A stretch of 64,000 bases of DNA. Source: Candidatus Saccharimonadota bacterium. Its GTDB lineage: Bacteria > Patescibacteriota > Saccharimonadia > Saccharimonadales > Saccharimonadaceae. A program made the position numbers and the translations under genes. Location of the stretch: positions 62,001 through 126,000 of the forward strand of contig WRHN01000001.1 of NCBI GenBank assembly GCA_009783235.1, read 5' to 3'. Numbering within the stretch: the first letter of the stretch is position 1; every line of letters starts with the position of its first letter. Of the stretch, positions 52,176-63,662 are shown piece by piece. The notes under the pieces are model-generated. The model had not been told where the DNA came from, did no database searches, and saw only the letters and a program-made list of their open reading frames with translations.

Positions 52176-52211
52176 TATCGCTGATAAAAATTAATTCATA
52201 TAGGAGGTGAT

Positions 52212-52739
52212 ATGAAAGAAGAAAAAAGTAAGAAAAGTGGTCTGGTAACAGCTGGGTTTGTACTAGGCATCGTGGCAATAGCTACCAGTTTTATCCCTAT
52301 TATCAACAACGCTTCAATAGTGTTGGGCGCACTGGCAGCGATATTTGGCGTTGTCGGTTTAGTTAAAAGAGCAGGGGCCAAGGCCGTCGTCACATTGATT
52401 CTCGGTGTTATTTCTGTAGCCATTGCTATATCAATGCAAATTTCTTTAAGTAATTCTCTGGATAAGCTGTCTGAGGACATAAACAATGTTGTTGAAGAAG
52501 CAGCACAGTCCGACATTAACGCTGACGAAATTTACGATAAAATTGTTAACGGCATGACTAAAGATGAAGTCAGCAGTGCGGTAGGCAGAGAAATTGGTAG
52601 CTGTAGCGAGTCTAGCTATGAAATATCTGATGTCACATATACAACGGAAACTTGTTCGTATGGTAATGCTCTAGCAGAAAACGGCTATGTGTCAGTTACG
52701 TTTAGCGACGGCAAGGTCTCGAGCAAATATAAAAATTAA
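52212..52739 (+). CDS. Membrane protein with DUF4190-like helices and extracytoplasmic domain
   Basis: The first 85 residues hold two or three helices (SGLVTAGFVLGIVAIATSFIPIINNASIVLGALAAIFGVVG) of the DUF4190 type. The outside part (EIYDKIVNGMTKDEVSSAVGREIGSCSESSYEISDVTYTTETCSYG) resembles SmpA/BamE-like folds, in which a KIxxGMTxxEVxxxLG helix is typical, with a probable disulfide between its Cys residues. TAGGAGGTGAT is its ribosome binding site. It lies under the attenuator-like leader. Confidence 0.7.
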   Translation: MKEEKSKKSGLVTAGFVLGIVAIATSFIPIINNASIVLGALAAIFGVVGLVKRAGAKAVVTLILGVISVAIAISMQISLSNSLDKLSEDINNVVEEAAQSDINADEIYDKIVNGMTKDEVSSAVGREIGSCSESSYEISDVTYTTETCSYGNALAENGYVSVTFSDGKVSSKYKN

Positions 52740-61449: not shown

Positions 61450-61597
61450 CTTGCGGGAACTTGACTCTAGGCCCTGTTAAGCTTGACTTTTTAACATAAA
61501 TGTGATAGAATGCAGACATTAGGTGGTTTGGGCGCTACCTTTGTACATTCAGATCTCTTGGAGGTGAGAGTTATGTTGGATTTTATAAATAACGCAT

Positions 61598-61615
61598 CTG
61601 TAGCACTGTTGCTCA
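61598..61615 (+). repeat. Left copy of 18-bp direct repeat
   Basis: CTGTAGCACTGTTGCTCA, identical to 63326-63343. It lies within the coding sequence of the interrupted membrane protein (codons for VALLL). Confidence 0.95.
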
Positions 61616-62334
61616 AAGCTCGCAAAACCTTCTATACCCTCTTTATTTAGCCTCACAAATGTATCCATAAATGCATCCATCGACTCGCTACCGTTTCTCA
61701 GTGCTTCTCCTAGCGCATCAGCATTAACATAACCCATTGCAGCAGCCACTTGTTTTAGCTGAGCCGGCATTGCTGACATCATGCTCCTCCACTCCATCAT
61801 ATCCGGTTTACCCTTAGTATATGCTTGAGTTAGCTGTTCTAACGCTGCTCTTTGTAAGTCCATTGGCGCTCCGCCAGCTAAAATTGCATTGTTCATTGCC
61901 AAAAATAACTCAACTGATTGGTCAATATCGCCATTTTTACTGACTAACCTCTGTACACTTAAAGTTGCGGAGTCTAATGCGGTGGGTAATCCCTTCAGTT
62001 TATCTGCAATTTTGGCTATTGCTGCCGCAGATTTATCACTCGCGATACCCAAATTCTCCATCACTCGAGGAAAATTATTCATAGTATCAAAACGTTTTAT
62101 CGCATTGTCTATTTGAGCGGTCATTTTAGACCACGCATTTGTCACAACATTGGCAATAACATTACCGACCGCAACTGCTGCCGCAGAAATTCTATCAAAG
62201 GCCGCACTCGAGCGACTTGAATCTTTATCAGTCTGGTTGGCCATTTTATTGACTTGGTCAATAACCCTGGCTAACGCTGCTTCAGCTGCTGAAGAATTTG
62301 CCTTTATTGTTAGTGTGAGATCGCTACTTGCCAT
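61598..62334 (-). pseudogene. Phage tape measure protein, N-terminal fragment
   Basis: From ATG 62334 the frame gives about 245 residues typical of tail tape measure N-termini: SDLTLTIKANSSAAEAALARV, NVVTNAWSKMTAQIDNAIKR, NFPRVMENLGIASDKSAAAI, LVSKNGDIDQSVELFLAMNN, MEWRSMMSAMPAQLKQVAAAMG and GFASFEQQ. Homologues continue for hundreds of residues after FEQQ; here the frame runs into the left repeat and stops soon after in host sequence (61549). It is therefore truncated exactly at the repeat. Confidence 0.8.
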
Positions 62335-63325
62335 GGTTTCCTATCATTTAAATCAGCAGTGCCAAACAACAAGTAAATAAAAACGGCGCTATTTAGCACC
62401 GCAATCGATATGTTAATTATATCATAATTAGTGTATAATTAAACTATCTAATATGGTGGGAGATAGGAGTAAGAATGCAGAAAAATCAACTGCGACTAGT
62501 AAAAAGTAAAGAATGGTACAAGAAATGGTGGATTTGGATTATTATAATAATCATTTTAGTTTTATTAGGATCATTGCTACCAAAAAGTAGCTTTGCGCCG
62601 CCAACCAAACAAAATAATAGTTCCGAAGATACAACTGCCTCGTCTATTGAAGTACCCGATGTTACTGGTCAACAAGCCGACACCGCATATAAAGATCTCC
62701 GCAGTAGGGGTTTCAAAGTTGAAATAAAAAGTGATGATGGACGTGATGTTATAGTCAAATCTAATTGGACCGTAAAATCTCAGTCTCTTAATGCTGGTGA
62801 TACTGTAAATTCCGGTACTTTTATTGTTTTAGTCGTAACTAAACCAAGTCCAGAACCCGATCCTGCTCCAGAATCAAATGGAAATACACCGGAACAGCCA
62901 GGAACTCCAACTCGCTATGTTATTTCAGAAAATACTGCCGAAAAATACTGCCAAGATGCTGCGCTCATCGGCCGTTATATTAACCTCAATGATATAAACA
63001 TCATATGGGCCACTAACTATGGTAAATACTTCGACGATAAAGCCGGTGGCTACGATGAATCTGGCAATCCAATAGCCTTCTTACGCTGGAACGGTAAGTA
63101 TAAAAAGTCTGGTGCGCAAATTATGTTCTCGTGCTGGATTAGCGGCTCAAGTAATGACAATATAACACTTCACTGGCTGTCTATTAATGGTACTGACTAC
63201 GTTGGATCTGCAGCTTTTGGATCATATAATGAATCTGGTACTAAACTAGACTAGCGTCTTCTAGCCGTATTCATTTTATCCTTAGCTTGAGCCATCTGAG
63301 CGTCCATTTTCTTGCTCTCACGCTC
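61616..63325. mobile_element. 1.7-kb insert derived from a phage tail module
   Basis: The insert is bounded by perfect 18-bp direct repeats and holds, on the minus strand, the end of an unknown gene and the N-terminal part of a tape measure protein. On the plus strand it carries a PASTA-domain protein. It contains no integrase or transposase and no terminal inverted repeats. It could be a remnant of integration through a circular intermediate, a phage-plasmid fragment, or a metagenomic assembly join at a shared 18-mer. Confidence 0.6.
62475..63254 (+). CDS. Membrane-anchored PASTA-domain protein (cargo of insert)
   Basis: An N-terminal basic stretch and one transmembrane helix (WWIWIIIIIILVLLGSLLP) anchor the protein. 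A PASTA domain follows at about residues 58-118 (VPDVTGQQADTAYKDLRSRGFKVEI). After a Pro-rich linker comes a C-terminal domain with two Cys (KYCQDAALIG, FSCWISG). PASTA domains bind peptidoglycan or muropeptides. Its opposite orientation to the phage genes, own promoter region (TGTATAATTAAA at about 62431) and ribosome binding site (ATAGGAGTAAG) suggest an independent cargo gene. Confidence 0.75.
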   Translation: MQKNQLRLVKSKEWYKKWWIWIIIIIILVLLGSLLPKSSFAPPTKQNNSSEDTTASSIEVPDVTGQQADTAYKDLRSRGFKVEIKSDDGRDVIVKSNWTVKSQSLNAGDTVNSGTFIVLVVTKPSPEPDPAPESNGNTPEQPGTPTRYVISENTAEKYCQDAALIGRYINLNDINIIWATNYGKYFDDKAGGYDESGNPIAFLRWNGKYKKSGAQIMFSCWISGSSNDNITLHWLSINGTDYVGSAAFGSYNESGTKLD

Positions 63326-63343
63326 CTGTAGCACTGTTGCTCA
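63251..63343 (-). pseudogene. C-terminal fragment of a phage gene
   Basis: On the minus strand from the right repeat, a helical tail reads QERESKKMDAQMAQAKDKMN then TARRR and TAG at 63253-63251. In this frame the repeat itself contains TGA, so the upstream part of the gene is missing. In tailed phages the gene before the tape measure is usually a tail assembly chaperone, but identity is unproven. Confidence 0.45.
63326..63343 (+). repeat. Right copy of 18-bp direct repeat
   Basis: Identical to 61598-61615. After it the host reading frame continues in phase with the part before the left copy. Confidence 0.95.
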
Positions 63344-63662
63344 GTCTCGTTCTGCTGATTGCGGGAATTATCTTTCTGCTGGTATCAGGCGGGGACGGTG
63401 GCAAGTCCATGGTTCTAAGCGTGCTCTTGTTGATAGTTGGCGTTAGTCTCGGTTTGACTTCTCTGCTTGTTGAAGAACCAAAGCATGAGTCCATTCGTCA
63501 AATAGAAGGCAGTTATCAATTCGTACGTGTGGTAGAATATCTGCCACACGAAAGAACTTTCTGGCTATCGGCTCGCAGTGAGAGCGCGATTGTTGGCTCA
63601 GAAATTCTTGTTCTGTTAGACGACGGGAGCTATATCCCGCTTAGAACAGATAATACTTGAAC

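Follow-up and report, generated by a model that had tools for sequence, protein, structure and literature searches.

Phage tail-gene DNA between perfect 18-bp direct repeats interrupts a putative membrane-protein gene in a Saccharimonadota bacterium

Introduction

Phage DNA comes to lie inside or beside bacterial genes in several described ways. In active lysogeny, regulatory genes are split by prophages, as with the comK prophage of Listeria and the skin element of Bacillus. Phage tail modules can themselves carry extra, moron-type genes inserted between their own. A further route is double or homology-facilitated illegitimate recombination during natural transformation of Acinetobacter, reportedly worked out by de Vries and Wackernagel in 2002 and by Huelter and Wackernagel in 2008.

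Here we describe a locus in Candidatus Saccharimonadota that resembles each of these in part. It lies in a window of 64,000 nucleotides, positions 62001-126000 of contig C1 (276,045 bases), from a 97% complete draft assembly of 677,568 bases in 6 contigs. As in active lysogeny, a gene is split by phage DNA with direct repeats at its edges, and removal of that DNA restores the phase; unlike active lysogeny, the insert has no recombinase, is a scrap of tail genes rather than a phage genome, and shows no common att core. As with moron-type genes, an opposite-strand membrane-type gene sits between what appears to be a pre-tape-measure gene and the tape measure, and the gap gene of one related locus (L141) is placed likewise, whereas the phage collection yields no match at E 1e-5 to the PASTA-domain protein encoded here. 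As in the Acinetobacter events, foreign DNA appears to be joined without long homology at a short junction match, in a genome with a candidate DNA-uptake gene; in contrast to them, a repeat flanks the insert and no host bases were evidently lost.

Results

A putative membrane-protein gene split between direct repeats

Two perfect copies of the 18-mer CTGTAGCACTGTTGCTCA, both pointed out in an earlier note on this DNA, stand 1,728 bp apart (Table 1). They are its only copies genome-wide at up to 2 mismatches (677,568 bases searched); with up to 3 mismatches allowed, shuffled sequences held a mean of 0.02 matches, and none of 100 shuffles held two. The likeness extends imperfectly to the left of the repeats, 22 of 24 bases being the same between 61592-61615 and 63320-63343. 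No other exact direct repeat of at least 18 bp occurs in C1 at 1-3 kb spacing, and none arose in 20 simulated first-order Markov sequences. At this spacing C1 has 4 repeats of at least 16 bp, this pair counted, against a simulated mean of 0.1, and 8 further repeats of at least 16 bp occur at spacings of 100-6000 bp with the CRISPR array excluded. Because real repeats of at least 16 bp exceed their simulated numbers, the 18-bp repeat is rare rather than unique in kind. What is distinctive about it is that it forms both edges of phage DNA whose flanks join in phase.

When the insert and one repeat copy are removed, the flanks form a single open frame, as the earlier note had claimed. It starts with the ATG at 61573, ends with the stop codon 63658-63660 and encodes a putative membrane protein in 119 codons. 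An in-phase join of this sort is expected by chance about 1 time in 3. In the present arrangement, translation from the same ATG ends after 25 residues. The promoter-like site and the GGAGGTG ahead of the ATG would speak for a real host gene; promoter-like matches in the region number 7 against a shuffled mean of 6.7, and since they are no more frequent than in shuffles, the site is weak evidence. The 3′ part of the gene has no relative in the 60 other near genomes (61 searched, its own genome alone matching), and a search of 394 family genomes returned its own genome and 18 weak matches (E 0.005-0.09). As no clear relative emerged, the case for a once intact gene comes from the frame and the weak start signals. 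Cut after 14 codons, the gene has presumably lost its function and become inactive.

The neighbourhood could be compared in 20 stretches from relatives around the upstream gene, of which one, in genome G003, also carries pnp. Its upstream gene is 67-69% identical, and the order there is upstream gene, tRNA-Leu, small gene, pnp, with no phage DNA in the slot. The small gene is unrelated to the interrupted gene, so the content of the slot before pnp varies, and G003 does not represent a true empty site. A partial tRNA-Leu-like stretch, recognized by eye, precedes the intact tRNA-Leu in G003 (L056:2873-2935) and is perhaps an old integration scar.

Table 1 Features of the interrupted gene and its insert, in window coordinates
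Feature	Position	Strand	Basis or remark
Promoter-like site ahead of interrupted gene	61483..61511	+	TTGACT-17-TAGAAT, TG before second hexamer
Shine-Dalgarno-like GGAGGTG of host gene	61560..61566	+	By eye
5′ piece of host membrane-protein gene	61573..61615	+	MLDFINNASVALLL, 14 codons and one base
Left 18-bp repeat copy	61598..61615	+	61598-61605 probably host only; 61606-61615 probably host and phage tape measure, judged from relatives
Tape measure N-terminal part (TMP_3), 243 codons	61606..62334	-	Pfam PF20155 1.9e-21; phrog_35723 3.6e-58; phrog_1686 5.3e-41
Insert between repeats	61616..63325		1,710 bp; G+C 40.6% versus 45.6% for C1
Terminator-like hairpin between PASTA and tape-measure genes	62383..62402	-	Pattern match only
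PASTA-domain protein, 259 aa	62475..63254	+	PF03793 6.5e-10; one hydrophobic N-terminal stretch (by eye)
End of another phage gene, last ~28 codons with stop	63251..63334	-	Position and residue style; native start within repeat uncertain
Right 18-bp repeat copy	63326..63343	+	63341-63343 probably host, as the phage gene's frame meets a stop there
3′ piece of host membrane-protein gene	63344..63660	+	Frame reading

Content of the insert

Up to the left repeat the insert encodes 240 residues of the tape measure on the minus strand, and both of its edges cut phage genes internally. Family searches agree with the earlier note that the insert encodes a tape-measure N-terminus and a PASTA protein and that the end of a further phage gene is cut at the right repeat. 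Its statement that the tape measure is cut exactly at the left repeat does not hold, since homology continues ten bases into the repeat, to 61606. The absence of an integrase was likewise borne out: no recombinase was found among the insert frames (tape measure, PASTA protein and C-terminal end). Nor does the insert have the transposase and terminal inverted repeats of an insertion sequence or transposon, no inverted repeat of at least 12 bp pairing its ends. Measured against integrative elements, it has the direct repeats at the edges and lacks the integrase gene.

Residues 12-125 of the PASTA protein align with NF033483 (PknB/Stk1 kinase) at 33.5 bits, far under the cut-off of 450. Residues 7-74 match phrog_4980, a superinfection exclusion family (1.9e-5), and the N-terminal part has a weak match to the Zot-like phrog_197 (0.001). 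Our literature search found no paper combining PASTA domain, phage and superinfection exclusion.

For the end peptide at the right edge, comparison with the viral and genome loci gave no significant relative. In position and residues it resembles the small basic-ended frames that some related phages (L109, L118, L124, L125, L128, L130, L133 and others) have ahead of the tape measure; many other viral loci have a different gene there, such as a tail-protein-like frame. Family searches with the small frames of L109, L128 and L130 returned families of unknown function alone; the L109 frame overlaps another one, which was placed in XkdN-like tail and tail-assembly-chaperone families. In viral contig L141, a membrane-protein-like gene fills the gap between the chaperone gene and the tape measure. 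Elsewhere in the window, at 52188-52739, lies a frame whose N-terminal part resembles this L141 gene (45% over 71 aa), which may be a likeness of membrane segments only. Because the order of its genes is compatible with a natural phage segment, we read the insert as one contiguous piece of a tail module.

Source and composition of the phage DNA

The composition of the insert is unusual for contig C1: among 317 overlapping windows along C1, 7 equal it in tetranucleotide distance and 6 are as low in G+C. Its tetranucleotide distance is 0.340 to C1 and 0.325 to the nearest phage locus and, these being about the same, composition is no proof of foreign origin.

At the DNA level the insert has no match, near or distant, in the phage collection, and one match among plasmids, covering 117 bases of the tape measure. 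The tape-measure protein matched 278 records of the phage collection, all below 60% identity and none covering 80% of the query. In IMG/VR the single protein retrieved 3 loci and a four-sequence alignment 83, of which 80 were kept; among these 80 listed loci, best-segment identity is 46-63% in 76 and 41-42% in four. On genome contigs the single protein gave 9 stretches, none of them confirmed, and the alignment 27 loci. These include loci from Erysipelothrix, Clostridia, Bacilli, some Bifidobacterium and other actinobacteria, and two on contigs labelled Saccharibacteria (L175, 53%; L177, 51%). Closer to the host, there is one other tape-measure match in 61 near genomes (E 2.3e-4) and one in 379 phylum genomes (E 2.0e-4).

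For the PASTA protein, IMG/VR holds two short N-terminal matches (L011 and L012), and the 379 phylum genomes hold 11 matches in 10 other genomes, mostly to the N-terminal part. Two of these loci were inspected, L015 and L016, from two other genomes of the family; in both, small proteins resembling the PASTA protein's N-terminus are encoded near genes that look, by eye, like serine recombinases. One survey counts 120 prophages in Saccharibacteria (PMC10746230).

Phage relatives depart from the repeat after ten bases

We compared the left junction with 108 tape-measure loci, 81 viral and 27 from genomes. Reading past the junction was possible in 106, L139 being cut off and L141 aligned too short; the 106 are not independent phages, since several are near-identical and L008 and L140 belong to one contig. 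Directly after the ten shared bases, all 106 have G and the window has T. At this point the relatives encode Ala (105 of 106) or Val (1 of 106) and the window Cys. Mean identity of the relatives falls from 66% across the ten bases to 19% across the following eight, of which no single locus matches more than 4. None of the 12-mers of the repeat occurs in the 81 viral loci, and IMG/VR contigs hold 0 copies of the exact 18-mer. The check proposed earlier, for a phage with this tail module and a single 18-mer, came back negative in these collections, and the donor phage was not found; the native junction bases are read from relatives about 35-63% identical in protein.

Because all 106 readable relatives depart after ten bases, the phage likely accounts for TGAGCAACAG only (10 bp) at the left edge. 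The remaining eight bases of the left junction are likely host. From the relatives we infer that the donor phage would depart at the same point, in the tape-measure bases following TTTGAGCAACAG. On the right, the frame of the phage gene meets a TGA inside the repeat, so at least the outer three bases of the right copy are probably host. The right match would probably comprise 6-9 bp, CTACAG or GTGCTACAG on the minus strand, with up to about 17 bp possible. The repeat is thus best understood as two copies of host sequence, each junction having a short match to the phage, and an 18-bp attachment core would not fit this pattern. Judged by relatives only, an identical phage core of the kind expected for an integrative element would be absent, 10 of the 18 bases being shared in 106 of 106. 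When the insert is closed as a circle, the tape-measure N-terminus gains a 20-residue tail that is out of frame with the other gene; since the junction adds only this tail, the circle restores no known phage gene.

Recombination and uptake genes of the host

The genome encodes a ComEC family match (4.0e-44). End joining by Ku was considered as well, and no Ku match was found in the genome. Its one tyrosine-recombinase match scores best with the XerD and XerC models, below their cut-offs, and lies above the cut-off of NF040815. On contig C2 a phage-like element (C2:136520-143701, L213/L214) encodes a ParB-methylase, a terminase-small-like protein, a DUF2254 membrane protein and a serine recombinase; family searches of these four frames gave no tail gene. 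Given this element, phages have entered this genome. Outside the window, C1:156225-161558 holds a Cas9-like frame (1,101 aa) and a Cas1-like frame, both named by eye, and a CRISPR array of 12 repeats of 36 nt and 11 spacers of 30 nt, with spacers 4 and 11 identical. None of the 11 spacers matches the insert.

Discussion

We consider it likely that a fragment of phage DNA was captured here illegitimately at short matches. A piece of a tail module, comprising the end of a pre-tape-measure gene, the PASTA-protein gene and the start of the tape measure, would have become part of a small membrane-protein gene of the chromosome through illegitimate recombination or template switching. The left join would have used TGAGCAACAG (10 bp) and the right join probably 6-9 bp, possibly more. 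Because both matches fall in the same 18 bp of the host gene, these would now stand on either side of the insert, forming a perfect direct repeat. The fragment may have entered in linear form, by natural uptake or by phage injection, and slippage between the repeats could remove it again, an event that would be accidental. The ComEC match, the lack of a Ku match and the same neighbours (tRNA-Leu, pnp) without phage DNA in G003 count in favour of capture. In a cultured Saccharibacterium, ComEC-dependent transformation with linear DNA is reported, there with about 1,000 bp of homology per side (PMC10633639). Against capture stands the coincidence of two matches within one 18-bp stretch, a point on which a site-specific model is simpler. 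The other genes that precede the tape measure in many viral loci, and a right end piece that has no significant relative, also count against it. The earlier note had offered microhomology as the second of three explanations, and of the three it is now the best supported, the left 10 bp being backed by relatives and the length of the right match deduced.

A misassembly, in which a path of phage reads was joined to the bacterial contig at the repeats, is unlikely. The assembly is a draft of 6 contigs, and perfect short repeats at edges are places where such joins could arise. Against this, the match between phage and left site is probably about 10 bases long, not 18, and so short a match falls below the words assemblers usually use. 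Beyond the insert the path also resumes the interrupted host gene without a change of frame, inside a contig of 276 kb, and no other copy of the tape measure was found in the assembly. The proposed chimera at a shared 18-mer is accordingly weakened by the ten-base match and by the position of the insert inside the contig.

Less probable still is a staggered break repaired by fill-in, which would have duplicated 18 bp of host DNA and left the phage matches at the junctions incidental. Both repeat copies seemingly hold host-only bases (8 in the left, at least 3 in the right), as a target duplication gives; yet the 10-bp left match would then be a chance event, and the insert has neither a transposase nor an inverted repeat of at least 12 bp to pair its ends.

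Site-specific integration of a circle with an 18-bp core, carried out by a recombinase acting in trans and making the gene switchable, we regard as very improbable. The perfect direct repeat and the in-phase restoration count for it, and the XerC/D-like match and the serine-recombinase gene on C2 could supply the enzyme. However, the insert is without a recombinase, IMG/VR is without the 18-mer, circle closure restores no known phage gene, and all 106 readable relatives leave the 18-mer after ten bases. The circle put forward in the earlier note is thus unsupported. For the note's on/off switch, the repeat and the restored phase are the sole arguments; the insert encodes no recombinase and no second state was seen. 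A reversible gate, through which a trans-acting recombinase would remove and restore the 1.7-kb piece so that the PASTA protein, perhaps an anti-phage exclusion factor, is expressed only when inserted, deserves even less credence. The least probable origin is the remnant of a whole prophage reduced to 1.7 kb, for which the short phage-like element with its serine-recombinase gene on C2 offers a parallel, but which would need two deletions with their ends at just these points, the edges being cuts inside tail genes flush with a host repeat.

Capture at short matches, even if tidy, would be an ordinary insertion, and it leaves knowledge of gene switches unchanged. If real, it would be a clean case of a bacterium with a tiny genome and a probably epibiotic life acquiring a fragment of phage tail DNA at the cost of one of its genes. 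With its junction bases still readable, the locus would help to clarify how foreign genes reach reduced genomes when no integrase is involved.
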